From: Bythopirellula polymerisocia
Lineage (GTDB): Bacteria > Planctomycetota > Planctomycetia > Pirellulales > Lacipirellulaceae
Length of the DNA stretch: 64,000 nucleotides
Assembly: GCF_007860015.1 (NCBI RefSeq)
Contig: NZ_SJPS01000009.1
Coordinates: 1-64,000, forward strand
Direction of reading: 5' to 3'
Under the pieces are notes generated by a model. That model was not told the DNA's origin and ran no database searches. It saw nothing but the letters and a program-made list of their open reading frames with translations. The position numbers and the translations under genes are program-made. This document shows, piece by piece, positions 6,977 to 36,762 of this stretch (positions within the stretch are counted from its first letter, which is position 1; the number at the start of each line of letters is the position of its first letter).

Positions 6977-6977
6977 C

Positions 6978-9610: not shown

Positions 9611-9640
9611 TTGACATCCACAATATAGCGGTGCTAGATT
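9611..9640 (+). promoter_or_regulatory. Promoter/operator copy 2, upstream of radical SAM gene
   Basis: TTGACA (9611-9616) and TAGATT (9635-9640) are 18 bases apart, with ATATAGCGG in the spacer. It is nearly identical to the narC promoter copy at 18100-18128, including the preceding CC and the shared TAGATT box. It lies about 58 bases before the radical SAM start and 58 bases from the hemG start, so it could affect both genes. Confidence 0.7.
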
Positions 9641-9698
9641 TGATTAGTCAACTCAGTCGGACTCTGTTGCCATTACCGCATACTGAAGATGCAATTCC

Positions 9699-18245: not shown

Positions 18246-19187
18246 ATGCCTCACAGCATTCTTAGTTTACTTAGACTTCCCAGGCTGCCAGTTGCCGTGG
18301 TCTCAGTACCACGGTCTTTGGAAGGAATCAGTGAATCCTGCCCTAGGGTTTTTGTGGCACACATCGTTGTTTGCCTCGTTTCCATTTTTGCGATCCCCGG
18401 TGCCAAGGGGCAGGACACACCAGACTACTTTCGTCAGAACTGCATTAGCTGCCACACCATAGGAGGCGGGCGACTCACTGGTCCTGACTTGAAGGGCGCC
18501 ACTGAGAGACAGGATCGCGAGTGGCTGAAGAAGTTCCTGATGAATCCTCGGGGAGTGATAGATAGCGGCGATGCCTATGCCAAGAAGATTTTCGAGGAAT
18601 CTCGCAATGTGCCAATGCCCACGCCACCGGGAATCACTGCCGAAAGGGCTGAAAAACTACTCGACTTGATTGAGGCGGAGTCACTGCTAGAAGAATCTCA
18701 GTTCAAGGGATTGCAAGTCTCTACCGCTCCATTCACGGATGCGGATCGTACACGAGGGCGAGAAATATTTCTCGGGCCTCAACGTTTGGAAGCTGGGGGT
18801 ACTGCGTGTGTTTCGTGTCACAGTATGCATGACACGACGGCACTTGGAGGGGGCCGACTGGGACCAGATTTGACCAACGTCTATGAGCGACTAGAGGGTC
18901 GTGTTGCTTTAAGCGCTTGGTTGATGGCACCAGGTACTGAGACGATGCAACCAATATTTAAGAACCATCCCTTGTCGGCGGATGAAATTCATGCTTTGGT
19001 CGCCTATTTTGAATCGACCGCTGCAGAGCGACCCGCAAATACTTCTACTAATCGTGTAACGTTTTTGCTCTCGGGACTGGCACTGGCCGTGATGGGAGTG
19101 TTCTTTTTCGATGTTATCTGGAAACGTCGATTTCACAGCGTTCGTAGAACGCTAGTCGAGGCAAATACCTCTCGAGGTAAATCATGA
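18246..19187 (+). CDS. narC: NarC-like dihaem cytochrome c
   Basis: A dihaem periplasmic cytochrome c with CISCH in the first half and CVSCH in the second, and a C-terminal membrane helix ([22 protein letters not shown]), so it is anchored with its haems outside. Gene order narC-G-H-J-I-K is like that of Thermus nitrate reductase, where NarC passes electrons and assists NarI assembly. Start chosen at 18246 (ATG with AGGGCGAG upstream). An ATG at 18168 in the same frame would add 26 residues but has no clear ribosome site. Both give a hydrophobic export segment before QDTPDYF. The stop overlaps the narG start (ATGA). Confidence 0.85.
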
Positions 19188-22100
19188 GTGTATTAGATGC
19201 GATCGCTTGGATCCGCGATGAAGTCAATCCCAAAGGTCGCAGTTGGGAAGAATTCTACCGTAATCGCTGGCAACACGACAAAATTGTTCGAAGCACGCAT
19301 GGCGTCAATTGCACCGGCGGATGTACCTGGCAAATTCATGTTAAGGACGGGATCGTCACCTGGGAGATGCAGGGCCTGGACTATCCAGTACTTGAATCGG
19401 GTATTCCGCCCTATGAGCCGCGAGGCTGTCAGCGCGGGATCTCTTACAGCTGGTATCTCTATAGTCCCCTGCGTGTTAAGTATCCGTACATTCGCGGAGC
19501 CATGTTGGATTTGTGGAGAGAAGCCAGGGGAGATCACGAGGATCCGGTCGATGCCTGGAAGAGTATGGTAGAGAATTCCGAGTCGCGACGCCGTTGGCAA
19601 CGGGCGCGCGGTAAAGGTGGGCTGAGGCGCACCGATTGGGAGACCGTGTTGGAAATCATTGCAGCCTCTTTGATCCATACGATCAAATCTCATGGTCCCG
19701 ATCGCATTGCCGGCTTCTCGCCGATTCCTGCGATGTCCATGATTAGTTATGCATCGGGGTCACGACTGCTGCAGTTGTTGGGTGGTGTTTCGCTATCGTT
19801 TTACGACTGGTACTGTGACCTGCCGACGGCTTCGCCTGAAACCTGGGGCGAACAGACCGACGTAGCCGAAAGCGCTGATTGGTATCACGCCAAGTTGCTG
19901 GCCGTGATGGGTTCGAATCTGAACATGACCCGCACTCCCGACTGCCACTTCGCTGCCGAAGCGAGGCACAACGGCTCCAAGATGTGGGTTTTCTCGCCGG
20001 ACTTCAGTCAGGTTTCTAAGTATGCCGACGAATGGATCGATATCAATGCTGGCCAGGACGGCGCCTGGTGGATGGCCGTCAATCATGTGCTTTTGACGGA
20101 GTTTCACCATCAGCGACAGGTCCCTTATTTTGATAAGTACACGCGCAAGTTTACGGACGCACCATTCTTGGTGGAGGTCAAAAAGGGTGCTGACGGGGTT
20201 TTGCGGCCAGGCCAACTGCTTCGGGCAGGACGACTCAAACAATATTCCGACCAGCAACATGGCGAGTGGAAGTTCCTCATGTGGGACGAGCAGACTGACG
20301 CTGCCAAGATGCCCATGGGAAGTTCAGGCGACCGCTGGGGAGACGTGAAAGGCAAATGGAATCTGCTGCTGAAGGATGGCAAAGACGGGAGTGAGATTCA
20401 TCCAACACTCACATTCTTGCCAAAGAACGATGGCGTCGTGCAAGTGGAACTCGACGACTTTGGAATGGGGTCGGTGTATAAACGAGGTGTCCCCGTACGG
20501 ACCATCAAGACTGCTGATAATCAGCAGGTGCAGGTGACAACCGTCTATGACCTGATGATGGCTCAATACGGCGTGAATCGTGATTTGGCGGGCGATTACC
20601 CGACCGATTACAACGATGAAAATGCCCCCTTCTCTCCAGCCTGGACGGAAAAGTACACCGGTCGTGGTCGAGAAGACGTGATTCGCTTCGCCCGAGAGTG
20701 GGGCCAGACAGCAGAGCTGACCGAAGGCAAGTGTACGATCATCATCGGTGCCGGTGTGAATCACTGGTATCACGCTAACCTGATGTACCGCGCAGGCATT
20801 CACGCGCTCATGTTTTGCGGCTGCGTTGGCAAGAATGGCGGTGGCTTAGCCCACTATGTTGGACAGGAAAAGCTGGCTCCAGCAGAATCCTGGGCGTCGA
20901 TTATGTCAGCAAAGGATTGGCAATCGACCCCTCGTCTGCAAAACGCACCGAGTTGGCACTACGTCCATTCGGACCAATGGCGCTACGAAAAAGATTTTAC
21001 GGACTACCACACAGTTCCCAAGCAACAAAGCAAGGACAGCATGGCTCAGGGGCATGCGATGGATATGCAGGTCCGTGCCGTACGAAATGGCTGGTTGCCG
21101 TTCTATCCTCAGTTTCCCGAAAACCCTCTGGAAGTCGCCGCCGCGGCGCGTAAAGCTGGCGCCAAATCGCCTGAGGAAGTCGCCGCTTGGGTCGCTGCCC
21201 GGCTGAAAAACCGCGAGATGAAGTTATCGGTCGAGGATCCTGATGCAGAGGAGAATTGGCCGCGAGTCTGGTTCATCTGGCGTGGCAACGCTTTGATGGC
21301 GAGTGCCAAGGGGCATGAATATTTCTTGCGTCATTATCTAGGTACGCACGACAATTGCGTCAATGAGGACATGGCCGCCGACTCGGTCAAAGAGATCGTG
21401 TGGCACGAGAACGCGCCGCAGGGAAAGATGGACCTGGTTGTAGATCTCAACTTCCGGATGGACACTTCGGCGCTTTATTCAGACATCATCCTTCCAGCCG
21501 CGACTTGGTACGAGAAGGCAGATCTTAACTCGACCGATATGCACAGCTTCATCCATCCACTCTCCAAGGCGGTGCCTCCTTGCTGGGAGTCGAAAAGCGA
21601 TTGGCAGATTTTTGAGCTGGTTGCCCAGAAGTTCTCAGCGCTCGCGGAGAAGCATTTCCCCGAGCCTGTGGAGGACTTGGTGGCGGCACCCCTGGCCCAC
21701 GATTCACCGGCTGAGATCGCGCAGCCGGATATGAAACAGTGGATTGACGGTGGCGTCGAGGCGATTCCAGGCAAGACGATGCCTAACTTCAAGATTGTCA
21801 CCCGCGACTACAAGAATCTTTTCAACCAATATATCTCTTACGGTCCGAATGTCCGCGAGGGAGGATTGGGAGCCCACGGCACGAATTATGGAATCAAAGA
21901 AGAATACGATGAGTATCTCACGACACATCCCACGGTGACTTGGAATGGCAAGACCTATCCATCACTCCGCCGCGATACCGAGGTGTGCAACACGATCCTC
22001 CACTTTGCCACGGTAACCAACGGCGAATTGGCCTATCGCTCCTACAAGAATATGGAGGAGAAGACGGGCTTGCCCCTGGTGTATTTGGCGGAGAAGAACC

Positions 22101-22843
22101 GTGGGGTGCGAGCTACGTATGAAGATCTGCAATGCCAACCGCAGCGATTCATCAATAGCCCGATGTGGTCGGGACTCATTGAAAATGGCCGCACTTATTC
22201 GGCCTTCACCTACAATATCGAGACCGACGTGCCCTGGCGGACCTTGACCGGCCGACAACATTTCTATCTCGATCATCCCGTGTATATCGAGTTTGGCGAG
22301 CATGTACCAACTTACAAGCCTAAGCCGTTGCCTACTCAGTACGCCGACCTCACTTTCAGCGAAGGGGAAGCACCTCCTGAATCGCAAGTTCTGACACTCA
22401 ATTATCTGACGCCTCATGGCAAATGGCATATCCATTCAACCTATGGTGACAACCAACGGATGACCACGCTTTCGCGCGGTGTCGATCCGATTTGGATAAG
22501 TGTCCAGGATGCGAAAGCATTGGGAGTCGACGACAATGATTGGGTGGAAGTTTACAACGACAACGGTGTTGTAGTCACACGAGCGGCAGTGAGTTCGCGG
22601 ATACCGCCAGGTATTTGTATTCAATACCACTCACCGGAACGAACCTACAGTGTGCCTCGTTCGCCACTAAGAAAGAATCGTCGTGCAGGAGGACACAACA
22701 GCCTGACGCGCACCCGATTAAAGCCCAACTTTATGATCGGCGGTTATGGGCAGTTTACTTATCACTTCAATTATTGGGGGCCGATCGGCTGTAATCGCGA
22801 CACCCACATTATTATCCGTAAATGTCCCGTCGTGAATTTCTAG
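19184..22843 (+). CDS. narG: Respiratory nitrate reductase alpha subunit
   Basis: The 1219-residue catalytic subunit that reduces nitrate to nitrite at a bis-MGD molybdenum centre. It aligns by eye along its length with E. coli NarG. The FS0 [4Fe-4S] ligands are H39, C43, C47 and C82 ([18 protein letters not shown]), and the Mo-ligand aspartate is D212 in WYCDLP. The segment [17 protein letters not shown]-like region is also present near residue 170. No Tat signal is seen, consistent with the cytoplasm-facing NarGHI type. It overlaps narC by 4 bases, and narH starts 21 bases after its stop. It needs MobB-made cofactor and NarJ chaperone. Confidence 0.97.
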
Positions 22844-22864
22844 AGGGATTAAGGAAATACGAAC

Positions 22865-24358
22865 ATGAATATCCGCTCCCAAGTGTCCATGGTGTTTCAC
22901 CTCGATAAGTGCATCGGTTGCCACACGTGCAGTATTGCTTGTAAGAATGTGTGGACCGACCGCAAGGGTGCGGACTACATGTGGTGGAACAACGTCGAAA
23001 CTAAACCGGGAACGGGTTATCCCACTAAGTGGGAAGATCAAGAACAGTACCATGGCGGCTGGGAAAAGAATGGCGATCAGCCGATCAACATCAAGTCGAC
23101 GGGCAAGGTGCGGGTGATTCCCAATATTTTTCACAACCCGTACATGCCCAGTATGGATGATTATTACGAGCCATGGACCTACGACTACCAGAACCTGTTC
23201 AACGCCGAAGAGGGTTCTGATCAGCCGATCGCCAAGCCGATTTCCATGATTACCGGCGAAGACATCAAGGTCGAAGCCGGCCCCAACTGGGACGACGATC
23301 TAGGAGGGTCAGAGATTTATGCGGCCAACGATCCCAATCTGAAGGGACTCTCGGAGCAACAACGCTTGCAACTTAGTTCGGTCGAGCGATTGGTGCTGTT
23401 CTATCTGCCACGTATCTGCAATCACTGCTTGAATCCTTGCTGTGTGGCTTCATGTCCCTCTGGTGCGCTCTACAAGCGAGGTGAAGATGGCATTGTACTG
23501 ATCGATCAAAAGAAGTGTCGTGCCTGGCGGAGTTGCGTGGCAGCTTGCCCTTATAAGAAAACGTACTTCAACTGGTTCACGGGTAAGAGCGAAAAGTGCA
23601 TCCTTTGTTTCCCGCGACTTGAAGTCGGCGAGGCCCCTGCTTGCTTCCACTCGTGTGTGGGCCGAATTCGCTATCTTGGGGTGTTGCTCTACGATGCTGA
23701 TCGTCTGGAGGAAGTAGCCAATTTACCCGACGACCAGTTAGTCGAGGGGCAGCGTTCTTTGATTCTCAATCCCCATGATCCCGAGATCATTCGCAAAGCA
23801 CAGTCGGCAGGAATTCCCGACGGAGTGATCGAATCGGCCCAGCGATCTCCGGTTTACAAGTTCGTGATGGATTGGAAGATCGCCCTTCCGCCGCACATTG
23901 AGTACCGCACCTTGCCAATGCTCTTTTATGTTCCACCAATGTCTCCGGTGATCGCTAACTTTGAAGATGGTCTGGCTAGCCACAAAATGCAGCGTCTGTT
24001 CCACGGCATCGACGAAGCACGAGTGCCGATGAAGTACTTTGCCAATCTCTTTGGCGGTGGACAAGAAGGAGTTGTACGCTATGCGATGGGCAAGCAACTT
24101 GCTGTCCGCTGGCATCGCCGGGCCGAGACGGTTGGCGACGTCGATCGAGCTACGGCCGACCGCTTCTTACGCGAGGCAAATTGCACAATCGAGGAAGCGG
24201 AAGCAATTTACAAGCTCACTTCGCTCTGCACGTTCGAGGATCGGTTTGTTATTCCCCCCATGTATCGGGAGCAGGCGATCGAAATGGTCAAGGAACCACA
24301 CGAGCAACGCGCCGAAACCGGCTTTGGATTCGTCGGTTGTCCACAAAGGGGGCTTTAA
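22865..24358 (+). CDS. narH: Respiratory nitrate reductase beta subunit
   Basis: The 497-residue iron-sulfur subunit wiring NarI to NarG. Four cysteine groups are seen: CIGCHTCSIAC, CNHCLNPCCVASCP, CRAWRSCVAACP and KCILCFPR...CFHSC. In the third group a tryptophan replaces one cysteine, as in E. coli NarH, marking the [3Fe-4S] cluster; it is not a sequencing error. The frame ends TAATG, overlapping the narJ start. Length and cluster order are normal for the family. Confidence 0.97.
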   Translation: MNIRSQVSMVFHLDKCIGCHTCSIACKNVWTDRKGADYMWWNNVETKPGTGYPTKWEDQEQYHGGWEKNGDQPINIKSTGKVRVIPNIFHNPYMPSMDDYYEPWTYDYQNLFNAEEGSDQPIAKPISMITGEDIKVEAGPNWDDDLGGSEIYAANDPNLKGLSEQQRLQLSSVERLVLFYLPRICNHCLNPCCVASCPSGALYKRGEDGIVLIDQKKCRAWRSCVAACPYKKTYFNWFTGKSEKCILCFPRLEVGEAPACFHSCVGRIRYLGVLLYDADRLEEVANLPDDQLVEGQRSLILNPHDPEIIRKAQSAGIPDGVIESAQRSPVYKFVMDWKIALPPHIEYRTLPMLFYVPPMSPVIANFEDGLASHKMQRLFHGIDEARVPMKYFANLFGGGQEGVVRYAMGKQLAVRWHRRAETVGDVDRATADRFLREANCTIEEAEAIYKLTSLCTFEDRFVIPPMYREQAIEMVKEPHEQRAETGFGFVGCPQRGL

Positions 24359-25143
24359 TGACAGACTTACCCATTGTCGAAGCAATTTCTTCGGAGAGTC
24401 CGGTTCCAGAAAAAGTGCGCAGTCTCGGTACGATCAGTCGCTTGCTGAATTACCCTGACGAGCACTACCTCCAACTGGTCGAGATGCTCTACCTCATTGT
24501 GCAATCGCAGTTGCCCGAGGCAGCGAAAGGGATTTCCGAATTTGGCCAATTCGTTGAGCAGTGTGTGGATCACGAATTGGAAGAGGCTTACACACGCACA
24601 TTTGATGTGAACCCTTCTTGTGCGTTGGAAATCGGCTGGCATCTATTCGGTGAAGACTACATGCGGGGCCAATTTCTGGTGCGGATGCGCGGCGAACTAG
24701 CCAAGTATGAGATCCCCGAATCGGCTGACCTGCCGGACCATCTCACCCATGTGTTAGCTGTCATCGCAGCCTTGCCAGATGAAGAGGCGTTCCAATTTAC
24801 CCATGCTTGCGTGTTCCCTGCACTCTTCAAGATGCAGGCATCGCTGGATAAGAATCAGTCGCCTTTTCGCCACCTGATTCGCTGTCTGTTGTTGGTGCTT
24901 GAGGAGTATTACGGCCAGGGTGAGTCCTGGGGGGAAAACGATGAAAAGTTGCTACGGAACACGGATTCCTTTCCCGGTCAGAACGGTCCTCGTCCCCCAG
25001 GAATGAATGATCCACTGCGTTCGTATCCCATGCCCACTTCTCCCTGTGGCGACAGGGAGATCGAATTTGTGCCCTTGCAGATGCAGTATGCAGCCCCCGC
25101 AAGCCAACCAGCCGCCATCAACGGCAACCCCATGAGAGATTGA
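24358..25143 (+). CDS. narJ: Nitrate reductase assembly chaperone
   Basis: A 261-residue cytoplasmic chaperone of the NarJ/TorD family that holds apo-NarG during molybdenum cofactor insertion. The ATG at 24358 overlaps the narH stop; the frame is open upstream but lies inside narH. The helical region includes LGTISRLLNYPDEHYL near the N-terminus and YTRTFDVNPSCALEIGWHLFGEDYMRG, the typical NarJ segment near residues 80-105. The C-terminal 50 residues are proline-rich and low in structure. narI begins 1 base after the stop. Confidence 0.92.
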   Translation: MTDLPIVEAISSESPVPEKVRSLGTISRLLNYPDEHYLQLVEMLYLIVQSQLPEAAKGISEFGQFVEQCVDHELEEAYTRTFDVNPSCALEIGWHLFGEDYMRGQFLVRMRGELAKYEIPESADLPDHLTHVLAVIAALPDEEAFQFTHACVFPALFKMQASLDKNQSPFRHLIRCLLLVLEEYYGQGESWGENDEKLLRNTDSFPGQNGPRPPGMNDPLRSYPMPTSPCGDREIEFVPLQMQYAAPASQPAAINGNPMRD

Positions 25144-25144
25144 A

Positions 25145-25837
25145 ATGAGTCAGCACTTTTTCGATCAGTTTCTGTTTGTAGCACTCCCCTATGTGTGCCT
25201 GTTTACTTTTTTTCTGATGACCATCTACCGCTACAGGGTGCAGTCATTTTCTTACTCGAGCCTTTCGAGCCAGTTCCTAGAAAATAAGCACCATTTTTGG
25301 GCGGTCGTGCCGTTCCACTATGGGATTCTGGTAGTTACGGCGGGACATTTCCTCGCGTTTCTCATTCCACGATCGCTCCTTGCTTGGAATAGCAAACCCT
25401 GGCGGCTCTACGTGTTGGAAATCTCGGCACTCGCATTCGGCATCCTAACACTGATTGGTCTGGTGGGAGTGATCGTGCGGCGAATGAGTAGCAGTAAGGT
25501 ACGCATGGTCACCACACCGACGGATTGGTTGTTGTTTCTCATGTTATTGGTACAGACAGTCAGCGGAGTGAGCATCGCCCTGTTCTATCCTTGGGGTTCT
25601 TCCTGGTTTGCAACAAACATGTCGCCCTATCTGTGGTCGATTCTCAAGCTGGATCCGGACGTCACCTTTGTGGCTGCGATGCCTTGGTTGGTCAAGTTGC
25701 ATGTCGTCCTAGCATTTCTCACGATCGGGTTCTTTCCCTTTACCCGACTGGTCCATGTGCTGGTAATACCCAATCCCTACCTGTGGCGGAAGACGCAAGT
25801 GGTGCGTTGGTATAGTCGGAAAGAAGGAAAGACTTAG
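25145..25837 (+). CDS. narI: Respiratory nitrate reductase gamma subunit (cytochrome b)
   Basis: The 230-residue membrane subunit that oxidises menaquinol and passes electrons to NarH through two b haems. Five membrane helices are evident. Candidate haem ligands are the histidines around residues 56-75 (HHFWAVVPFHYG ... AGHFLAF) and in the last helices (KLHVVLAF ... RLVHVLVIP), matching the two-pair arrangement of NarI. Length is normal. It lies between narJ and the first transporter with gaps of 1 and 4 bases. Confidence 0.95.
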   Translation: MSQHFFDQFLFVALPYVCLFTFFLMTIYRYRVQSFSYSSLSSQFLENKHHFWAVVPFHYGILVVTAGHFLAFLIPRSLLAWNSKPWRLYVLEISALAFGILTLIGLVGVIVRRMSSSKVRMVTTPTDWLLFLMLLVQTVSGVSIALFYPWGSSWFATNMSPYLWSILKLDPDVTFVAAMPWLVKLHVVLAFLTIGFFPFTRLVHVLVIPNPYLWRKTQVVRWYSRKEGKT

Positions 25838-25841
25838 TTAC

Positions 25842-27632
25842 ATGGAAGTCCGCAACAAAGCGACCCGCATCGAATTATTTTCACTCAAGACTCGCCCGAT
25901 GCGCGCCTTCCACATGTCGTGGTTCGCGTTCTTTTTATGCTTTTTTGCTTGGTTCGGTATCGCCCCGTTGATGGCGATCGTTCGCGACGAATTAGGGCTA
26001 ACCAAGGAGCAAATCGGCAACACGATCATTGCCTCTGTGGCGATTACTATCTTCGCGCGGCTATTCATCGGCTGGCTTTGTGACCGAATCGGGCCGCGGT
26101 TGAGTTACACATTCTTACTCATGACGGGCTCGATTCCTGTCATGTTAATAGGATTGGCCAACTCGTATGAGTCCTTCTTACTGTTTCGTCTCGGTATCGG
26201 AGTGATTGGGGCATCGTTCGTTATTACTCAATATCACACCTCGGTCATGTTTGCCCCGAATGTAGTCGGTACAGCCAACGCCACGAGTGCAGGCTGGGGG
26301 AATTTGGGTGGTGGGGTCACTCAAATGATCATGCCTCTCGTGTTCGCTTTTTTCATCTGGCTTGGCTACGGTGATCCCACTGCTTGGCGTCTCTCGATGG
26401 TGGCCGCGGGTGCGGTCTGCTTCGTGACAGGCGTCGCATATTACTTCTTCACGACCGACTTGCCTGATGGCAATTTCAAAGAACTACGTGCTTCTGGGGA
26501 AATCTCGTCAACCGAGAAAGGAAAAGGCTCCTTTTGGCTCGCCGCTCGGGACTATCGGGTCTGGGCATTATTCCTGGTCTACGCTGCTTGTTTTGGTGTT
26601 GAACTGACTATCAACAACATTGCAGCAATTTACTATATGGACTACTTCGACTTGGGCCTGAAAACGGCGGGGCTCGTCGCTGGCCTGTTTGGGTTGATGA
26701 ATATTTTCGCCCGTACACTCGGTGGGTTCATTAGTGACCGATTTGTCCGCATTGCAGGACTCAAAGGCCGTGTCCAATGGCTATTTTTTGCACTCTTGGT
26801 AGAAGGGTTCGCACTGCTGCTCTTCTCTCAAATGCAAGTGCTGGCCTTAGCTATTCCGACCATGATTGTTTTCAGCTTGTTCGTGCAAATGTCCGAGGGG
26901 GCCACCTTTTCTGTAGTTCCGTTTATTAATAAGAAGGCCTTGGGTAGCGTGGCTGGCATCGTGGGTGCGGGTGGAAACATGGGTGCCGTATGTGCAGGCT
27001 TCTTGTTTCGTTCAGAAGGCCTGAGCTATCCCCAGGCACTCTTGATTCTTGGCGGAGCTGTTTGTGTCTTTTCGTTTTCTACTTTGCTGGTGAAGTTCAG
27101 CCCTGCCGCAGAGAAAGAGGCTGCCGATGAGTTTGATCTGGCCATGACCCGCAGGCGTGAAGAACTCAAAGATCGCAAGCCGCTTCGCGAACTCATTCCC
27201 GGAATTCGTCACCTTCGACCCATGGATGCGCTGCGAATCTATTTAGGCGTCGCCCTGTTTATCAAGGGTATCTACTTCATCACGAATATGGCCGAACTTG
27301 AGTCGACTCTCGGCGAAGGCCTTGGTCAAGGGCAGACGATGATCGCCTGGTCTGTGGTGTTTGCACACATTATTGGTGGAGCCTGCCTCATGCTCGGTTT
27401 CGTAACGCGTGTAGCCGCAGCTGCAAACGCTTTGATTCTCTTTGGCGCCGTCTTGTTCTCTTTGGGAGGCACCGCAGCAAGCGAAAGCGTCCTCGGAACA
27501 AACGTCGATTTCCAATTTACTGCGTTCGTTTTCTTCACACTCGTACTCTTCGTGTGGCGGGGATCTGGTCCCTTGTCGCTCGACCATTTGTTGCGCCTCG
27601 ACGTCGAAGCGGAACCGGAAATAGTATTGTAA
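25842..27632 (+). CDS. narK: NarK-type nitrate/nitrite MFS transporter fused to a DoxX-like domain
   Basis: A 596-residue membrane protein. Residues about 20-435 are an MFS transporter of the nitrate/nitrite porter group, with the glycine-rich signature GWGNLGGGVTQMIMP and DRIGPRLSY between helices. After a polar linker (about 440-470, KEAADEFDLAMTRRREELKDRK) comes a second membrane unit of about four helices (MDALRIYLGVALFIKG ... GGACLMLGFVTRVAA ... FVFFTLVLFVW) that reads as a DoxX/SURF4-like domain. Nitrate porters normally end after 12 helices, so this is a fusion. The DoxX part could pass electrons or sense redox state beside the transporter; that is speculation. Confidence 0.85.
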   Translation: MEVRNKATRIELFSLKTRPMRAFHMSWFAFFLCFFAWFGIAPLMAIVRDELGLTKEQIGNTIIASVAITIFARLFIGWLCDRIGPRLSYTFLLMTGSIPVMLIGLANSYESFLLFRLGIGVIGASFVITQYHTSVMFAPNVVGTANATSAGWGNLGGGVTQMIMPLVFAFFIWLGYGDPTAWRLSMVAAGAVCFVTGVAYYFFTTDLPDGNFKELRASGEISSTEKGKGSFWLAARDYRVWALFLVYAACFGVELTINNIAAIYYMDYFDLGLKTAGLVAGLFGLMNIFARTLGGFISDRFVRIAGLKGRVQWLFFALLVEGFALLLFSQMQVLALAIPTMIVFSLFVQMSEGATFSVVPFINKKALGSVAGIVGAGGNMGAVCAGFLFRSEGLSYPQALLILGGAVCVFSFSTLLVKFSPAAEKEAADEFDLAMTRRREELKDRKPLRELIPGIRHLRPMDALRIYLGVALFIKGIYFITNMAELESTLGEGLGQGQTMIAWSVVFAHIIGGACLMLGFVTRVAAAANALILFGAVLFSLGGTAASESVLGTNVDFQFTAFVFFTLVLFVWRGSGPLSLDHLLRLDVEAEPEIVL

Positions 27633-27638
27633 CACATT

Positions 27639-29231
27639 ATGGCTAGAACACCTGAACACTGGGATGTCGAGGATTCTGTATTTTGGGATTCGACAGGCAA
27701 ATCCATCGCCAATCGCAACCTGTGGGTTTCGATTCCCAATCTCCTCTGCGGATTCTCTGTCTGGTTGTATTGGGGCATGATCGTCAAGGTGATGCAGCGC
27801 CTGCATTTCGCCAACACCGAGCTATTCAATTTCACGTTTAATAATGAAGGCCAAGCCTACGATGAGGCGGGCTACCGGGCTCTGCTATTCACGCTGCCGG
27901 CAGTGGCAGGACTGGCGGGTGCGACGCTGCGGATCCCCAATTCGTTTATGATTGCGATCTGTGGTGGGAGGAACGTCAAGTTCATGACCACGGTCATGCT
28001 GATCATACCCGCCTTGCTGACGGGGCTTGCTCTCCGAAATCCGGAAACGCCGTTCTCCGTCTATATCATCCTGGCTGCTTTCTCGGGTGTCGGCGGTGGG
28101 GCCTTTGCGTCCAGCATGTCGAACATTTCATTCTTCTTCCCCAAGCGGATGCAAGGTCTGGCGCTCGGGCTCAACGCGGGACTGGGGAATGTGGGAGTCA
28201 GCGTAATGCAGTTCCTCGTTCCTTGGGTGATCACCCGGAGCTTGTTTGGTGGAATCGGCGGAGATCCTCAGGAATTCCTCGTCAAAAATGAGACTCAGCA
28301 ACTCTGGATCCAGAATGCGGCGCTGGTGTGGGTGCCGATCATGATCGTGTTGACAATCATGGCATGGGTGTTCATGAACAATCTGCCACAGCACAAATGT
28401 GGTCCAACGCCTGTGGCGATCGGCAAATATCTCTGGCTACAGATGATCGGGTTTCTCGGCACAGCAGTGGGGGTCATCTTCTTGATGTTTGTACCAATGC
28501 CAATTCCGGAGTTGGTACGTATTTTCTTGGTGCTGCTCGTATCGGTGATCACTACCTTGCTGGGCATGCGATTCATGACTCCGCAGGCCATTCAACAACC
28601 GCTCAATGGCCAGTTTGCCATTTTCCGCAATAAGCACAACTGGGTTATGACATGGCTCTATGTGATGACATTTGGTTCGTTCATTGGCTACTCAAACGCC
28701 TTCCCCAAACTGATCGACGATATCTTCGTCACCCCTTCCAACGGACTTGTTACCTCGCATTACATTTGGATTGGTGCAGCAGTAGGGGCGCTCATTCGTC
28801 CGGTGGGGGGTTGGCTGTCTGATAAATTAGGAGGTGCGCGGGTCACTCAGTGGGACACCTGGGTCATGGTCGCCGCGACTGTATTAGCGGGTTATATCGT
28901 TGCGTTGGCAGGACAAAGCGAGACCCCCGAAAAGTATTTCATTCCGTTCCTGGTGACTTTTGTCGTGTTATTTGCCTCTACAGGAATCGGTAATGGTTCT
29001 ACATTCCGTATGATCCCCATTATTTTTTCCAAAGAACAAGCGGGACCAGTCCTCGGTTGGACCTCTGCCATTGCGGCCTACGGTGCCTACCTAATACCCC
29101 AGGTATTCGCGACGCAGATTGAAGCCGGTACACCAGAATACGCGCTCTACGGATTCGCAGTCTATTACGCCAGTTGCCTGATTGTGAATTGGTGGTTTTA
29201 TGCTCGTGCTGGTGCAGAAATCAAGTGCTAA
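27639..29231 (+). CDS. narK2: Second NarK-type nitrate/nitrite transporter
   Basis: A 530-residue 12-helix MFS protein, probably a nitrate/nitrite antiporter exporting nitrite made by NarG. The nitrate signature is clear at about residues 160-190 (SSMSNISFFFPKRMQG, GLNAGLGNVGVSVMQFL). A second signature-like segment lies near residue 450 (STGIGNGSTFRMIPIIF). It starts 6 bases after the first transporter and lacks the DoxX extension. A pair of NarK types is common in nitrate-respiring operons: one usually symports nitrate with protons, the other exchanges nitrate for nitrite. Which is which here is not decided by sequence reading. Confidence 0.9.
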   Translation: MARTPEHWDVEDSVFWDSTGKSIANRNLWVSIPNLLCGFSVWLYWGMIVKVMQRLHFANTELFNFTFNNEGQAYDEAGYRALLFTLPAVAGLAGATLRIPNSFMIAICGGRNVKFMTTVMLIIPALLTGLALRNPETPFSVYIILAAFSGVGGGAFASSMSNISFFFPKRMQGLALGLNAGLGNVGVSVMQFLVPWVITRSLFGGIGGDPQEFLVKNETQQLWIQNAALVWVPIMIVLTIMAWVFMNNLPQHKCGPTPVAIGKYLWLQMIGFLGTAVGVIFLMFVPMPIPELVRIFLVLLVSVITTLLGMRFMTPQAIQQPLNGQFAIFRNKHNWVMTWLYVMTFGSFIGYSNAFPKLIDDIFVTPSNGLVTSHYIWIGAAVGALIRPVGGWLSDKLGGARVTQWDTWVMVAATVLAGYIVALAGQSETPEKYFIPFLVTFVVLFASTGIGNGSTFRMIPIIFSKEQAGPVLGWTSAIAAYGAYLIPQVFATQIEAGTPEYALYGFAVYYASCLIVNWWFYARAGAEIKC

Positions 29232-29258
29232 GAGACAGGTAAGTTCGGACAAAAAGCA

Positions 29259-29912
29259 ATGCAACAACGAGTCCTCTTAATCGTACTGCTGATTGGTGTT
29301 GGCTTCGGCCTGTCGCTGCTCGTGTCAGCGATGAGTTTGTGGCACATGCCCGACAACCAGCAAGGTTACGCCCCTGAGCAACCCATCAATTACTCGCATC
29401 GACTCCACGCCGGTGAATTGCAGATCGACTGTAAATTCTGTCACTCTGCGGCGCAGTCGGGTCACTACGCTGGCATTCCTTCAACTGAAGTCTGTATGAA
29501 GTGCCATCGCTATGTGACTGCTCCCTACGACCAGATGCAACAGGAACTGCAATTGGCTGACAAAGAAGGACGTAAGCCTGAGACGATTGTCTCGCCAGAA
29601 CTTAAGAAACTTTACGATTCCTTAGCGCTCGATGAGAACCTCCAGCCGATTGAAAACGGTACGCCTCAGTCGATTCCTTGGGTGCGAGTTCACAATCTCC
29701 CCGACTTTGCATGTTTCAACCACCAGGCGCATGTCGCGGCGGGGGTGACGTGCCAGACTTGCCATGGCCCGGTTGAATCGATGGAGCGCGTGAGCCAGTT
29801 TGCGCCACTTTCGATGGGTTGGTGTGTCAATTGCCATCGCGAATCAACCCGGGATGGCGTCAATGGCCGTGAGGTTCACGCTGCCACCGATTGCACTGTT
29901 TGCCACCACTAG
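29259..29912 (+). CDS. actA: ACIII pentahaem cytochrome c subunit
   Basis: A 217-residue cytochrome with an N-terminal membrane anchor and five CXXCH sites (CKFCH, CMKCH, CQTCH, CVNCH, CTVCH), the haem count known for ActA of alternative complex III. Further histidines (YSHRLHAG, FNHQAHVAAG) are candidate sixth ligands. It is the first gene of the act set, 27 bases after narK2 with no terminator in between, so the act genes appear to be read through from nar. Confidence 0.92.
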   Translation: MQQRVLLIVLLIGVGFGLSLLVSAMSLWHMPDNQQGYAPEQPINYSHRLHAGELQIDCKFCHSAAQSGHYAGIPSTEVCMKCHRYVTAPYDQMQQELQLADKEGRKPETIVSPELKKLYDSLALDENLQPIENGTPQSIPWVRVHNLPDFACFNHQAHVAAGVTCQTCHGPVESMERVSQFAPLSMGWCVNCHRESTRDGVNGREVHAATDCTVCHH

Positions 29913-29921
29913 TTTTCGAAC

Positions 29922-32900
29922 ATGAATGCTATGAATCAGAATTCTGACGACCATCGATCCCTCGGCACTGAACCCCGGGGTCTACGAAGACTTTCCAATG
30001 GTTATTTCGTCTCGACGGAAGAAGCTCCGGCGCTGAGCCGACGCGAGTTCTTAGAAGCCGCCGGGTTTTCGCTCTCGCTGGCAGCGATGAGCGGCTGTGG
30101 CCGAGCCCCTGTTGAATCTGCTTTGCCATTTCCCATCCAGCCCGTGGGTGCCATTCCCGGTCGTCTCCAATACTATGCTTCCACCTGCGCGGGTTGTCCG
30201 GCAGCTTGCGGACTGCTCATTGGAACCCGCGATGGCCGACCATTAAAGATGGAAGGCCTGCCAGAGCACCCGCTCTCTCAAGGGGGACTCTGTGCGGTGG
30301 GACAAGCACTGCCAATCGGCCTGTATGACAGCCAACGCCTGATAGGCCTGCTTCGTGCAGGCAAGAAAGCAGAGTGGGCACAGGTTGACGAAGAAATCCT
30401 TCAAGGCCTCCGCCAGATTAAAGACCAAGAACAGCAAGTTGTGATTGTTACGTCAACAATCACCAGCCCAACGATCCAAGCTAGTATCGACAGCTTTCTT
30501 GATCAGTTCCAGAATGCCAAACACGTCGTGCTCGATGCCGTAAGTTCCTCAGCTATTCTGGATGCACACGAACAAACCCATGCGGTACGCGTGCTTCCCC
30601 ATTATCGGTTTGATCGCGCCGAGGTCGTGGTGTCTTTTGGGGCCGATTTTCTCGGTACCTGGATTTCGCCCGTCGAGTTTACTGCGGACTGGAGTGCTCG
30701 GCGAGTTCCCAGAGAGCAGTCCCCCGAGATGTCTTACCATGTCCAGTTGGAAAGTCGGATGTCTCTCACGGGGAGTAATGCGGATCGCCGAATCGCGATT
30801 CACCCGAGCAACCAAGGGCCGCTGGTGGCACGTCTGGCGGACAAGTTGGCGGCGGCGGCGGGCAGGCAGCTAGACGAACCACTGGCACCGAGGATTGCAG
30901 AGAGCGACGAGAATCTTGTCTCTGAACTTGCCGAGCGTTTGTGGAATGCTCGGGGAAAGAGCCTTGTGCTCTGTGATAGTCAGGAAGTTGGCGTCCAAAC
31001 ACAAATCAATTTCATCAATGACCTGCTGGGCAACTACGAACACACGTTAGATATTGAGCGTCCAAGCCTTCAGCGGCAAGGGAACGACCGAGAAGTCCAG
31101 CAACTGGTCGAAGATATCCGCGCTAAGCAGGTTGGTGCACTGATCGTCGCCGAGGTGGATTTGCTATACGATCTCGCCGGGCATGAATCGCTCTCCGCCG
31201 AAGTCGGTGAAATCCCGTTGACGATTAGCTTTTCGCATCGTGTGGATGAGTTTGCCGCGATTGCCAAATTTGTGTGCCCTGACCACCACACGCTAGAATC
31301 GTGGTCTGACGCTGAGCCGATCAGCGGTTTGATCAGTTTGATTCAGCCGACGATCCGCCCTCTGAGTAATACTCGAGCCATCGTGGAAAGCTTGGCAGTC
31401 TGGTCTGGTCAACCTCAGGCAGCCTATGAGGTGGTTAAAGACCACTGGGAAAAGAAAATCTTCCCTCGCCGCCGGTCGACGGGCTCTTCCCAGTTCCTCG
31501 ATTTCTGGGAACAAGCTCTGCGGGACGGATTTGTCGAAGTCAGTTCGGAGGCCCCTACGATTGGAAGGTTTGAGACCAGTGTTCTAGAGCCAGTAGCTCA
31601 GGAGAGGATGTCTGAGAACTTCTCCTTAGTGCTCTACAACAAAGTGTCAATGCTTGACAGCCGCCACTCCCATAATCCTTGGCTCCAAGAACTACCCGAC
31701 CCAGTCACAAAAGTAACTTGGGACAACTACGTTAGTATTTCACCGCGGGATGCGGCAGAACTCGGTATTCAAGATGGTGATGTGGTTAAGGTTTCAGCCG
31801 GCAAGAATGGATCCCGAATCGAGTTACCAGCCCTGATACAGCCCGGTCAACATGACGGGGTCTTGGCGGTTGCCCTCGCTTACGGATGCAAAGGGACCGA
31901 TCGCTTTGCAAAGATTGGGCCACAATGGATCGAAGCCCGCCCGAGTGTTTCGGAGAATGGCTTGGTTGGGGTAAACGCCGCAGTTTTTGTCTCGTTTCAT
32001 GGTGGCACCCAGCGCTACACGCGGGCCGGTTTTTCTCTGGCAAAGACTAGCAGGCATCGCGAACTCGCCGCTACCCAAGAGTACAACTCCCTGGAGTTGC
32101 CGCCAGAGGTAGCGCCGCATGGTGCAGAACGGCGCAAGATCGTTCAGCACACGACTCTTGCCGCTTTCACCAAGGATGCCGAGGCAGGCGCTGTCGAGGA
32201 GCACTTTAGCACCGAGACGCAATTGTGGCCAGAAGACCATCCCAAACCAGACCATACCTGGGGAATGGTCATTGATCTCAATAAATGTACCGGATGTTCA
32301 GCGTGTGTAATTGCTTGTCAGTCTGAAAATAATATCCCCGTTGTCGGTTACGACGAAGTGCGACGCCAACGCGAAATGCACTGGATACGCATCGATCGAT
32401 ACTACGATGGGGAAGACGAAGACCTGAACGTTGCGCATCAACCTATGATGTGTCAACACTGCGGCAATGCACCGTGTGAAACCGTGTGTCCTGTTTTGGC
32501 AACGGTCCATAGCAGCGAAGGCCTTAACGAACAGGTTTACAACCGCTGCGTCGGCACGCGCTATTGTGCGAATAACTGCCCATACAAAGTCCGTCGTTTC
32601 AATTGGTTCAAGTATCCCTACGACGATACTCTGCAAAACCTGGTGCTCAACCCTGAGGTAACGGTCCGTTCGCGGGGCGTTATGGAAAAATGTTCGATGT
32701 GTTTCCAACGGATCGAAGCCGGGAAGATTGAAGCCCGCAGTCAGGGGTTGCCGATTGTTGATGGTGCTATTCAGACGGCATGCCAGCAATCTTGTCCAGC
32801 CAGTGCAATTGTTTTCGGTGACATGAACGATCCGCAGAGCGAAATTCATCTGGCTCTGGAGAACCCCCGCCGTTACCGAGTCCTCGAAGAACTCAACGTG

Positions 32901-32963
32901 CGTCCAGCGGTTTCCTATTTGAGAGTCGTAAGAAATCGCGACGAGGAGTCTCAGCATGGCTAA
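29922..32963 (+). CDS. actB: ACIII iron-sulfur/molybdopterin-fold subunit
   Basis: A 1013-residue fusion typical of ActB. The N-terminus has a Tat-like segment ([10 protein letters not shown]) near residue 40. Residues about 90-700 form a molybdopterin-oxidoreductase-like domain, thought to lack cofactor in ACIII, with a CAGCPAAC...GGLCAVG cysteine group. Residues about 770-1000 form the ferredoxin-like domain with [37 protein letters not shown] and CSMCFQR...CQQSCP, enough for one [3Fe-4S] and three [4Fe-4S] clusters. It carries electrons from the quinol site towards ActA. Its last 8 bases overlap actC. Confidence 0.93.
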
Positions 32964-34395
32964 GTCAAAAAAGCAACGAACGACTCCGGTTGCTCCAGTG
33001 CAAGCTGCCGACCCGCTGGCGACTCTGCGTCCCCAATTGATCACTGGCGGAAAGACGCCCGCGGATGTGACTCGCGATATCTGTGCTCCCCTGGATCATA
33101 GTCCTGGCGCTCTGTGGTGGTCCGCCTTTTCGGTGTCCATGACTGCCCTTATCGTGGGGACTATAGCGGTCACCTACCAAATCGCCACGGGTATCGGTAC
33201 GTGGGGATTGAATCGAACCGTAGGATGGGCGTTCGACATTACCAATTTCGTGTTCTGGGTTGGTATTGGCCATGCCGGCACGCTGATTTCGGCCGTGCTC
33301 TTTCTGTTTCGGCAGAAGTGGCGCACTTCGGTGAATCGCTCAGCAGAGGCAATGACGCTAATTGCTGTCGTCTGTGCCGGTCTCTTCCCCGTGATTCACA
33401 TGGGACGTCCTTGGCTGGCGTTTTGGATGTTCCCCTATCCCAACACGCGCGGCTCACTCTGGGTCAACTTCAAGTCACCACTGCTCTGGGATGTCTTTGC
33501 GATCTCCACTTACTTGCTCATCTCAGCCGTCTTCTGGTACGTAGGATTGATTCCTGATCTGGCCACGATTCGCGACAAATCCAAACCGGGTTGGCGTCGA
33601 CGCATTACAGGGTTCTTCAGTCTCGGCTGGAACGGTTCGGCACGCACTTGGCATCGCTATGAAACGGTTTATATGTTGCTAGCTGGTCTTGCTACGCCGC
33701 TGGTGTTTTCCGTGCATACGATTGTGAGTATGGACTTTGCCACCGCCATGATTCCCGGTTGGCATACGACCATCTTTCCTCCTTATTTCGTAGCTGGGGC
33801 AATCTTTAGCGGGTTGGCCATGGTGCTGACCCTCATGCTCATTGCCCGCAAGGTAATGCATCTCGAAGACTACATAACCGTCCTGCATATCGAAGCGATG
33901 TGCAAGCTGATGCTCTCAATGGGCTGCATTGTGGGCTTGGCCTATGGCACGGAATTCTTTATCGCGGCCTACAGCGGCAATCCCTACGAACAGTTTGTGT
34001 TTCTCAATCGGGCACTAGGACCGTTTAGTTGGGCCTATTGGACCATGGTTTCTTGCAACGTGTTGATTCCGCAATTGTTGTGGTTAAGGTCGCTGCGGAG
34101 GAACTTCGCTTTCGTCTTCCTGATCAGCATTGTTGTCAATATCGGCATGTGGTTTGAACGCTTTGTAATTATCGTCACGAGCCTGCATCGCGATTTCTTA
34201 CCCTCAAGTTGGGCCAGTTATGTGCCCACGATTGTTGAGGTCGCCACCTTGGTAGGAAGCTTTGGCCTGTTCTTTTCCTGTTTCTTGCTGTTTTGCCGGT
34301 TTATGCCCGTGATTGCCATGGCCGAAGTAAAGGGAGTGCTGAAATCTCCCCAGCGTGATCTAAAGCACGATTCGGCAAGAGGAGATGCAGCATGA
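32956..34395 (+). CDS. actC: ACIII NrfD/PsrC-like membrane subunit
   Basis: A 479-residue integral membrane protein of the NrfD family, with about ten helices, that holds the quinol-binding site and part of a proton route in ACIII. Landmarks are [17 protein letters not shown] before helix 1, [33 protein letters not shown], and [17 protein letters not shown]. It overlaps actB by 8 bases and actD by 4 bases (ATGA). Confidence 0.93.
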
Positions 34396-34931
34396 GTGAC
34401 CGTAGACTTCTTGCTTCCTTCGACTGTGAAGAAGACCTGTTGGCAGCCACCACACTGCTCAATAGCAAGGGATACAGGATCGTCGATGCCTTTACTCCCT
34501 ATGCCGTGCATGGCCTCGATCACGCCATGGGCCTCAAGCCCTCGCGGCTTACCTGGGTCTGTTTTGTTTGCGGCATGGTGGGTGCCTTGGGAATGCTCTG
34601 GTTTGAATACTGGATAGGTGCAATCTCCTGGCCAATCGATGTCGGCGGTAAGCCGTGGAATTCGCTTCCCTCGAATGTCCCCGTTGCTTTTGAAACCGCC
34701 GTACTGCTGGCAGGATTTGGCAGTGTGTTCGCGCTGTTGGGAGTATCTCGTTTGTATCCGGGAAAGAAGGTTCAGCCAGTGCTAGAGCGTGTGACCGACG
34801 ATCGATTTGTACTGGTACTCGACGAAGCAGATGCTCGCTTCGACATGTCTCAAGTTGAAGCGATGCTCAAGCCATTCAACCTTGCTGCACTTGAAGAGCG
34901 GGTTGTCACGACGGAGGGATTGCAGCGATGA
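34392..34931 (+). CDS. actD: ACIII DUF3341 membrane subunit
   Basis: A 179-residue protein with two membrane helices (about residues 55-78 and 95-118) separated by a short loop and flanked by cytoplasmic domains. The N-terminal ferredoxin-like fold begins [18 protein letters not shown], and the text [16 protein letters not shown] before helix 1 is typical of DUF3341/ActD. It packs against ActC in ACIII structures and carries no cofactor. ATGA overlaps occur on both sides. Confidence 0.92.
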
Positions 34932-35602
34932 TTTACCGTTTGAATATTGGCTTGCTAGTCCTGCTGGGAGCAATCCTGGTGATGTTGATGGTTCTGAGAG
35001 TCGACAATTCACGCCCAAATTACCAAGTGAATCTGGGCGACGACATGACTTATTCGCCAGCCTTCACTCCGTTCGAAGCCAATAGCAACTTCGCCAATGG
35101 TCGCACTCTGCAGGATCCCGTGCCCGGGACAATTGCGCGAGGCACCCAGTTGTTTTCCTTTGAAGCCACGCCTGAGGGTGCGCTGCGAGCGGGCACAGAA
35201 CTGCCGAACCCCTTCGATCCTAGTTCGGAAGCAGGGATCGCTTCCGCGGATCGGGGGGATGCCCTGTTTTCTGTCTTTTGCATATCTTGCCACGGTGCTG
35301 ACGGCACAGGTAACGGTCCGGTGGCGAAGTGGGGTTTTCCTCCTCCTCCGTCCCTTCTGACTGGCAAGTCTCGCGAAATGAAAGACGGACAATTATTTCA
35401 CATTCTCACCTATGGTCAGAACAGCATGCCGCAGTTCGCAGCCCAATTGCCGCCCGCAAGCCGGTGGGATCTTATCAACTATATCCGACGTATCCAAAAC
35501 GAGTCGCCTCCAATCACCACTGAAAGTTCCGTGTACTCGAATCCTTCTGGGAAAATAGAAGCGCCTCTGGCAATCTCAGCCAATACGGAAGCTCAACCAT
35601 GA
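34928..35602 (+). CDS. actE: ACIII monohaem cytochrome c subunit
   Basis: A 224-residue protein with an N-terminal membrane anchor (LLVLLGAILVMLMVL) and one cytochrome c domain: CISCHGADGTGNG near residue 118, with NSMPQFAAQL giving the likely methionine ligand near residue 162. ActE is the electron exit of ACIII to soluble or oxidase-bound cytochromes. It has no lipobox cysteine, so anchoring is by helix. It overlaps actD and actF by 4 bases each. Confidence 0.92.
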   Translation: MIYRLNIGLLVLLGAILVMLMVLRVDNSRPNYQVNLGDDMTYSPAFTPFEANSNFANGRTLQDPVPGTIARGTQLFSFEATPEGALRAGTELPNPFDPSSEAGIASADRGDALFSVFCISCHGADGTGNGPVAKWGFPPPPSLLTGKSREMKDGQLFHILTYGQNSMPQFAAQLPPASRWDLINYIRRIQNESPPITTESSVYSNPSGKIEAPLAISANTEAQP

Positions 35603-36762
35603 CTCCTGCAAGTGCTCCATTCTCAACTCTAAGCCGTCGGTTGGCTCTCCTTGCCATAGTCTCAGCCATTACCCTGGCCATTGGTGCAGCAATTTCACCT
35701 GTTCGCACATGGAGCAATCTGTTGATTATTAATTTCTACCTTGTCACATTAGGACTTGGTGGTGCACTGTTCATTGCCTTGACTTATGTCTGCAACGCTT
35801 CATGGAATGTAAGTTTTCGCCGAGTTCCAGAAGCGTTAGCCGTCCTGCTTGCGCCGGTTGGCTTGGGTCTTTTGGCGGTCCTTGCCCTGGGACGCGAGCA
35901 CTACGACTGGCATCCCCACGGCACCGGTGACGCTGGTACCTTCTGGTTCAAAGAGATGTGGTGCAATTCGACTTTTTGGTTTGGCAGGGCGGCTGTCTAT
36001 GTCTCCTTATGGATTCTGTTGTCTCGTGCATTGGTGACTGTATCGCGGCGCCAAGACAACACCGGAACACTGGGCCTAACCATCGCCAATAAGCGATTGT
36101 CCGCCCTATTTCTCTTCGTCTATGCAGTGACTTTTTCGCTTGCTAGTTGTGATTGGCTCATGTTGCTCGAGCCTTTATGGTTTAGTACAATCTGGGGCGT
36201 GTACAATTTTGCAGGCATGGTTCAAGCGGTACTCGCTACCATGATCGTGTTGGCACTTGTGCTTAGATCGCGAGGCCCTCTGCGGCGTATCTTTACAGAC
36301 GATCACCTTCACGATCTAGGAAAATTGCTCCTGGGGTTTAGTTGTTTCTGGATGTACATCTGGTTCAGCCAATACATGCTAATTTGGTACACCAACATTC
36401 CAGAAGAAGCGTCCTATTTCATTCCCAGAATGCAGGGCGCGTGGGGACCCATTATGGTCGTCAATATTGTGCTGAATTGGATCGCTCCATTTTTATTTTT
36501 GCTACCCAGGCCATGCAAACGGAGCGAAAGCGTCATGATGAAAGTGGCTGTCATTGTGCTCATCGGGCGTTGGGTCGACCTCTACGTGATGGTTTTTCCC
36601 ACCACGATGGGTGACTGGCCGGTTTTTGGCCTGTGGGAACTTGCCGGAGGATGTCTATTGATTGGCACATTCGGATGGTTGTTCTTCCGGTCCTTCGCCA
36701 AAGCGGCACCTGTGCCAAGTGCCGATCCATTACTCGGCGAGAGCCTCCATTATCACTGTTAA
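35599..36762 (+). CDS. actF: ACIII second membrane subunit (ActF)
   Basis: A 387-residue polytopic membrane protein, the second NrfD-like subunit of alternative complex III. About ten helices are visible. Charged and aromatic segments (HYDWHPHGTGDAGTFWFKEMW, FWMYIWFSQYMLIWYTNIPEEASYF) match the ActF pattern. It is the last gene of the nar-act run. No cytochrome oxidase genes follow, although many act clusters continue with caa3 oxidase. A hairpin at 36815 probably ends the transcript. Confidence 0.9.
   Translation: MTPASAPFSTLSRRLALLAIVSAITLAIGAAISPVRTWSNLLIINFYLVTLGLGGALFIALTYVCNASWNVSFRRVPEALAVLLAPVGLGLLAVLALGREHYDWHPHGTGDAGTFWFKEMWCNSTFWFGRAAVYVSLWILLSRALVTVSRRQDNTGTLGLTIANKRLSALFLFVYAVTFSLASCDWLMLLEPLWFSTIWGVYNFAGMVQAVLATMIVLALVLRSRGPLRRIFTDDHLHDLGKLLLGFSCFWMYIWFSQYMLIWYTNIPEEASYFIPRMQGAWGPIMVVNIVLNWIAPFLFLLPRPCKRSESVMMKVAVIVLIGRWVDLYVMVFPTTMGDWPVFGLWELAGGCLLIGTFGWLFFRSFAKAAPVPSADPLLGESLHYHC

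Follow-up and report, generated by a model that had tools for sequence, protein, structure and literature searches.

The locus considered here raises the question of whether an alternative complex III (ACIII) encoded directly behind a nitrate reductase operon serves the respiration of nitrate rather than that of oxygen. It lies in a 64,000-nucleotide stretch of Bythopirellula polymerisocia (contig NZ_SJPS01000009.1, positions 1 to 64,000; hereafter the window), which was located on contig C9 of the source genome (G000; 6.14 Mb, 95% complete). Thirteen genes in the order narC-G-H-J-I-K1-K2-actABCDEF were found on the forward strand at 18246–36762 by open reading frame (ORF) calls and family profiles. 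As stated in a preliminary description of the sequence, no intergenic gap exceeded 27 nt, the widest being that between narK2 and actA (29231–29259), and at least five junctions overlapped (narC/narG, actB/actC, actC/actD, actD/actE and actE/actF). The operon is read here as a Thermus-type nitrate reductase, NarCGHI, combined with an ACIII that would serve nitrate rather than oxygen respiration, and a probability of roughly 0.55 is given to this reading. The nar-act arrangement itself is real, conserved and partly published. Moreover, the FS0-type residues of nar-linked ACIIIs suggest that the complex is not solely for oxygen respiration.

Composition and conservation of the nar-act operon

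The six Act genes are predicted to encode a complete, bona fide ACIII, as had been proposed, and all six subunits matched ACIII chains or families. ActA (29259–29912) matched 6btm_A and 6f0k_A and carried five CxxCH motifs, within the five to six haems c of an ACIII. ActB (29922–32963; PF04879) had a twin-arginine N-terminus and combined the MopB-like domain B1 with the Fe-S domain B2, as in other ACIIIs; it aligned with 6f0k_B across 18–1005 (E 1e-174), and the 15 cysteines of B2 were kept in every group compared. Among the matches listed, its closest named relatives were metagenome-assembled genomes (MAGs) of Planctomycetota (72% identity to locus L080). The NrfD-like quinol-binding subunit ActC (32956–34395) matched 6btm_C (E 7e-189) and 6f0k_C (E 3e-186). 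Nine residues named in the available part of PMC8076601 were compared by eye on the alignment (Rhodothermus marinus numbering), and ActC retained His139, Ser164, Asp169 and Asp253 of the quinol site as well as Tyr323, Glu326, Glu338, Glu394 and Arg395 of the P-side proton path. ActD (34392–34931; PF11821, 170 bits), the monohaem cytochrome c ActE (34928–35602; one CxxCH; 6btm_E and 6f0k_E) and ActF (35599–36762; 6f0k_F, E 1e-49) also had the features of their ACIII counterparts.

The same six-gene cluster was treated in PMC10732223, in the portion available, as a cluster without a match among described complexes and as a possible NrfAH-like nitrite reductase. The multihaem ActA, the NrfD-like ActC and a weak match of ActA to PF02335 (NrfA) agree with that proposal. 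However, this match reached 23.6 bits, below the cut-off of 24.1, and ActA had five CxxCH motifs and no CxxCK; five subunits (ActA, B, C, E and F) matched chains of solved ACIIIs, and ActD matched its own family; and a strong NrfA (>250 bits) was encoded elsewhere in 14 of the 29 genomes with a nar-act operon described below, three of these genes having one internal stop. A novel NrfAH-like enzyme is therefore most improbable, and the published candidate nitrite reductase is corrected here to a predicted ACIII because of the haem motifs and the score of ActA.

For the nitrate reductase, all four subunits NarG, NarH, NarJ and NarI exceeded the curated cut-offs, as is expected of a respiratory NarGHI: narG (19184–22843) reached 1466 bits with TIGR01580 (cut-off 1084), narH (22865–24358) 646 bits with TIGR01660, narJ (about 24358–25143) 66.7 bits with TIGR00684 and narI (25145–25837) 127 bits with TIGR00351. 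Upstream of narG, narC (18246–19187; longest ORF from 18168) encodes a dihaem cytochrome c (two CxxCH, PF00034) with a C-terminal hydrophobic stretch, which places the enzyme with the Thermus-type, NarC-containing Nar of four subunits. Two transporters of the major facilitator superfamily (MFS) and NarK type follow, and neither reached the TIGR00886 cut-off of 311.7: narK1 (25842–27632; PF07690) scored 310 bits and narK2 (27639–29231) 284 bits. A DoxX domain (PF07681) is fused to the C-terminus of NarK1, and highly similar proteins of the same length were seen in L080 and L087. If NarG were a nitrite oxidoreductase, ACIII could run in reverse and reduce quinone, and the Nitrobacter nitrite oxidoreductase cluster also has a NarC homologue, according to the part of PMC7694296 seen. 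This possibility is very unlikely, as NarG was 59–60% identical over 99% of its length to Thermus nitrate reductase, and the two NarK transporters, the octahaem cytochrome and the nitric oxide (NO) reductase gene of the genome fit nitrate reduction.

The statement that no terminator separates nar from act held only formally. A scan of the forward strand at 28238–30613 gave none, but the scan was uninformative (22 sites against 21.2 in shuffles), and the lack of a terminator carries little weight because the sites were as frequent in shuffled sequence. No terminal oxidase gene was found in the window downstream of actF, in agreement with the preliminary description, part of the downstream ORFs having been family-searched.

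The linkage was explored in 392 genomes of the phylum, with ActD in 217 and NarI over the cut-off in 53 (weaker matches only in 23 more). NarI over the cut-off was found in 51 of the 217 ActD-positive genomes versus 2 of the 175 ActD-negative ones. In 29 of the 53 narI-positive genomes, the window included, actD followed narI at a distance of 5.3–9.8 kb on the same strand, and these genomes cover 15 families and 25 genera. A set of 141 ACIII loci was also compiled from the window, 60 sampled-genome loci (28 picked as linked and 32 others picked by hand, non-randomly) and ActB relatives in genome_contigs, of which the best 80 out of more than 588 were taken. With nar upstream within 10 kb and cox downstream within 9 kb as the definitions, 39 loci were nar-linked (two of them counted in duplicate), 70 cox-linked, none both and 16 neither; 16 were cut by contig ends. 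The nar-act order also occurred in MAGs of three other phyla, whose records bear the titles Ignavibacteriae (L088), Acidobacteria (L093) and Bacteroidetes (L091), and hence the operon probably moved between phyla. Thus, the linkage that the preliminary description had proposed to seek in other genomes was present both within and beyond the phylum. Among the 28 nar-linked loci with a called actA, 24 had its start no more than 60 nt past the nar gene before it (overlaps of over-extended ORFs counted), and this tight spacing in relatives argues against chance adjacency. Wherever more than 900 nt was available upstream of narG (18 loci), a dihaem narC-type gene stood there; 13 of these genes were called by profile, and 5 were recognised by eye as dihaem ORFs that overlap an over-extended narG ORF. 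The adjacency itself is already published: the accessible text of PMC10732223 on Oslofjord planctomycete MAGs prints nar beside the six-gene cluster in 13 instances, but the complex is unrecognised there.

A nar-linked class of ACIII and the FS0-type motif of ActB

The relationship between gene context and descent was evaluated on an ActB and ActC tree of 85 loci with Shimodaira–Hasegawa-like support. One branch of 35 rows (support 99) held 28 nar loci, three short nar-like contigs, three edge loci and one other, and no cox locus. In four genomes (G016, G100, G176 and G391), one cox-linked ACIII fell inside the cox clade and one nar-linked ACIII outside it, the remaining genomes with two ActDs having been fetched in part. 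Shuffled labels never matched the observed clustering of nar and cox, the shuffles being without a correction for kinship.

In the profile alignment, Cys89, Cys92, Cys96 and Cys124 of the window ActB were in register with four cysteines of ArrA, which we take to bind FS0. These residues would form the four-cysteine [4Fe-4S] FS0-type motif of molybdenum–bis(pyranopterin guanine dinucleotide) enzymes. Among 138 aligned ActBs (two duplicates and one locus lacking actB were dropped), the complete set of cysteines was found in 34 of the 37 nar loci and all 3 short nar-like loci (together 37/40), 11 of 16 other loci and 3 of 12 edge loci, versus none of the 70 cox loci (23 with no cysteine, 7 with one and 40 gapped at one position at least). 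The three nar-linked ActBs without the motif all belong to one family (f45). Plasmid records with an ActC match numbered 19, and the 13 that were fetched came from Isosphaeraceae, rhizobia, Burkholderiaceae and others; all 13 ACIIIs were cox-linked (11 by annotation and 2 by own gene calls) and none had the motif, which gives 0 of 83 oxidase-linked ActBs overall. Four distinct solved ACIIIs in the alignment also lacked the pattern.

The association between the motif and nar is clear in counts and weak as an independent test. The motif changes four times on the tree, and two to three independent transitions underlie its association with gene context. Independent contrasts gave two pairs on starred branches (three on all branches), and those tested went in the expected direction, with p 0.5, which is not significant.

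The solved ACIIIs have been described with a B1 that lacks cofactor ligands, a trait outside the definition of the complex, and the window ActB departs from it. In the portion of PMC5928083 consulted, B1 of the R. marinus structure holds no prosthetic group, and the available text of PMC10100899 places ActB exclusively in aerobic respiration, its Mo/W cofactor and Fe-S clusters having been lost. No earlier report of the four-cysteine motif in an ACIII was found in the literature searched, the 2010–2013 ACIII papers of Refojo and colleagues being outside its scope; the putative FS0-type motif of nar-linked ActB is thus, as far as this literature goes, the new part of the finding. It predicts one extra [4Fe-4S] cluster in B1, which would lengthen the [4Fe-4S] wire of the Rhodothermus ACIII.

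Ser208 of the window ActB aligned with an ArrA cysteine that is presumably the Mo ligand. It was rejected as a Mo ligand in B1: the same serine was present in all 46 cox-linked ActBs without FS0 (genome_contigs, mostly Bacteroidota), which removes it as evidence for Mo. At residue 871, in the Fe-S domain, 86% of the four-cysteine ActBs had Gln, and Met was found in 29 of 30 cox-linked ActBs ungapped at the motif.

A few ACIII loci had other contexts. In L049–L052 (family f28), ACIII was preceded by a weakly NarC-like cytochrome and ActB retained the four cysteines; narGH gave no match in the L049–L052 stretch, and L049 and L051 also had a weakly NarI-like cytochrome b. In L049 and L051, the large ORFs that precede act were considered as NosZ and then read by eye as a LepA-like GTPase. 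In L094 (Elusimicrobia MAG), the ActE ORF had seven CxxCH motifs, and a gene for a ten-haem cytochrome followed actF.

Proposed electron flow and possible acceptors of the complex

Under the favoured reading, ActC would oxidise menaquinol at the periplasmic side and ActC/ActF would pump protons. The electrons would leave via FeS1, cross the ActA and ActE haems and reach NarC, from which they may pass to NarI and NarGH, so that nitrate reduction would gain a second coupling site; with nitrate scarce, NarC could instead supply other periplasmic reductases. NarC had been named earlier as one possible acceptor, and the dihaem narC-type genes of all 18 loci make it a better candidate than the HAO-like protein, the direction of flow being our inference. 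The route ACIII to NarC to NarI is tentative, slightly short of even odds, and the remainder falls to flow into the periplasmic cytochrome pool. In the available part of PMC7694296, Thermus NarC interacts with NarI, is required for growth on nitrate and is proposed as a substitute for complex III; in that of PMC5673643, a bc complex adjoins nar in the planctomycete Thermogutta. These precedents make a link between complex III and Nar at the level of cytochrome c plausible.

The survey of other respiratory enzymes in the source genome covered haem-copper enzymes, cytochrome b, HAO-like proteins, NrfA, NirK and NosZ. One ActD only was found, and the ACIII of the genome is the nar-linked one; the genome has four loci for cytochrome b and four haem-copper enzymes. 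Beside each of the two aa3-like oxidase clusters (contigs C2 and C6), Rieske and cytochrome b genes were present. With a single, nar-type ACIII and aa3-like clusters that have their own Rieske and cytochrome b, dedication to nitrate respiration is favoured. Of the haem-copper enzymes, one was an NO reductase of the fused, quinol-type build (PF22085).

Several points weigh against this dedication. A cbb3-like cluster on contig C1 (L016; ccoN model far below the cut-off) had no quinol:cytochrome c complex in the 19 kb seen, and ACIII could therefore serve this oxidase. Of the 53 narI-positive genomes, 24 were unlinked or undecidable, with ActD on another contig, distant or absent (2) and several narI near contig ends. 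On the tree, nar loci also stood outside the 35-row branch (family f28, L026, L028 and L095), and the nar context requires eight to nine changes. The text of PMC10732223 at hand gives five cases of oxygen reductase genes behind the six-gene cluster, and flow in Thermus was proposed from NarI to NarC, the opposite direction (PMC7694296, excerpt). In addition, the window NarI aligned with E. coli NarI and looked canonical by eye, retaining four histidines that we take to be the haem ligands. Known NarGHI oxidises quinol directly, without need of cytochrome c. The favoured reading is weakest where it sets which way electrons pass through NarC.

The cbb3-like cluster without its own complex III and the status of the complex as the sole ACIII of the genome would also suit a general-purpose ACIII, which would feed the periplasmic cytochrome pool for any acceptor, including oxygen via the cbb3-like oxidase, the clustering with nar then reflecting co-regulation at low oxygen. 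However, three Rieske/cytochrome b loci besides that of the window were present in G000, none of the 141 loci placed a nar-linked ACIII beside cox, and the four genomes with two ACIIIs kept one per operon type. Such a general role is unlikely, with some real chance left to it. An oxidase that depends on this ACIII alone had been named as one observation that would contradict dedication; neither aa3-like enzyme would be expected to fit that description, and the cbb3-like one may.

The nitrite stage was considered separately, as the complex had initially been said to serve nitrate and nitrite respiration with the HAO-like protein among its acceptors. The first part was retained for nitrate, given the conserved linkage, the single ACIII and the aa3-like clusters with their own Rieske and cytochrome b, the cbb3-like oxidase remaining a possible client. 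The second part was not supported: the HAO-like octahaem cytochrome c (4131–5816, reverse strand; eight CxxCH, PF13447, nearest solved structure 4qo5_A with E 5e-41) shares a block at 4131–8054 with its own cytochrome b (5927–7042, reverse strand; PF00033 and PF13631) and Rieske protein (6978–7502, reverse strand; PF00355), the block also including a divergent Rrf2 regulator at 7629–8054. In relatives, cytochrome b lay beside the HAO-like gene in 10 of 18 loci, and the Rieske gene too in 8. In relatives such as L183, a tetrahaem cytochrome was also encoded in the HAO-like block, together with a molybdopterin oxidoreductase. The accessible part of PMC5317091 proposes an analogous arrangement for the Nap/epsilon-Hao locus of Caldithrix.

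A supply of the nitrite step by ACIII, with energy-conserving nitrite ammonification by the HAO-like octahaem protein or NrfA, would agree with several counts. PF13447 was found in 20 of the 29 nar-act genomes versus 33 of 166 ActD-positive genomes without narI (Fisher 3e-7, kinship uncorrected), and an HAO-like protein or NrfA occurred in 26 of the 29 genomes. NirK and NosZ were rejected as acceptors: NirK exceeded the cut-off in none of the 29 (8 had weaker matches), and a near-complete NosZ, itself below the cut-off, was found in one. Furthermore, no cytochrome b was seen beside the HAO-like gene in 8 of the 18 loci, which tells against dedication to nitrate, since ACIII could supply the nitrite step there, and no tetrahaem gene accompanied NrfA in 3 of 14. 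However, the other loci have their own quinol donors, cytochrome b in the window and the 10 loci above and a tetrahaem gene beside NrfA in 11 of 14 (NapC/NirT family in the two tested). The HAO-like protein was also common in unlinked narI-positive, ActD-positive genomes (12/22), so it follows narI and not the nar-act linkage. In G000, nothing was found for NrfA besides the sub-cut-off match on ActA. Among the HAO-like and NrfA loci compared, many nitrite-stage enzymes, though not all, own a quinol donor, and the HAO-like protein of G000 does. A role of ACIII in the nitrite step is thus quite improbable.

If the favoured reading holds, nitrate respiration would gain a coupling site that textbook NarGHI lacks. 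The nar-linked class that keeps the FS0-type cysteines occurs in records whose titles name four phyla; it argues against 'exclusively aerobic' and 'cofactors lost' as general statements on ActB (available text of PMC10100899), and it offers a model for the origin of ACIII from a molybdoenzyme. A bolder extension is doubtful: the nar-linked ACIIIs might be a separate anaerobic class with an extra [4Fe-4S] cluster in B1 that forms a nitrate respirasome with NarCGHI, the proton-pumping ACIII feeding NarI at the cytochrome c level, and FS0 might complete an ancestral wire from the quinol site to the MopB domain and possibly to a bound Mo/W cofactor.

Genomic surroundings and known systems

An Rrf2-family gene (17547–18053, reverse strand; TIGR00738 above the cut-off), for which a regulatory role is presumed, diverges from narC. 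Ahead of narC, an inverted repeat with arms of 16 nt and a spacing of 54 nt was considered as an operator and not adopted, there being no comparison to support it. On contig C4 of G000, the NO reductase gene lies beside an Rrf2-like ORF (L017, 7437–10556) with the CPL...CPLH pattern of the two Rrf2 proteins of the window. A common NO- or Fe-S-sensing regulon of these proteins is a guess. At 8051–10781, haem-related genes lie near nar: a radical SAM protein that exceeds the TIGR04053 cut-off and is also AhbD/NirJ-like is encoded beside a protoporphyrinogen oxidase. The left edge holds a group II intron-type reverse transcriptase (84–1421; RVT_1, GIIM). The window also encodes a DUF1559 protein, a sulfatase and a VLEDR-type surface protein, presumably a planctomycete trait.

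The operon was finally compared with known systems. The ACIIIs of R. marinus and Flavobacterium johnsoniae (6f0k and 6btm) are similar to that of the window in subunits A–F, the pentahaem ActA, the monohaem ActE, the quinol site of ActC and the B2 cysteines; however, the window complex is linked to nar instead of cox, and only its B1 has the four-cysteine FS0 pattern. ACIIIs outside oxidase operons or in anaerobic chains appear in the consulted parts of PMC9386147 and PMC9270275, so an anaerobic ACIII is in itself no novelty. In the former, the ACIII-like clusters of MBNT15 with multihaem cytochromes lie outside oxidase operons and anaerobic (iron) respiration is suggested for them, but the available text gives no nar linkage. 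The Oslofjord MAGs share the adjacency and the same six gene types, whereas the text of PMC10732223 at hand contains no clade or FS0 analysis. Thermogutta terrifontis has a planctomycete nar beside complex III, but this is a bc complex, and NarC and ACIII are not mentioned in the part of PMC5673643 consulted. The Thermus cluster narCGHJIKT has the order narC-G-H-J-I followed by MFS transporters in common with the window. Its NarG is the close homologue described above, and the window NarC shares 29–30% identity with the cytochrome encoded ahead of narG on Thermus plasmids, but in the T. thermophilus JL-18 plasmid the stretch read after nar contains no act genes.

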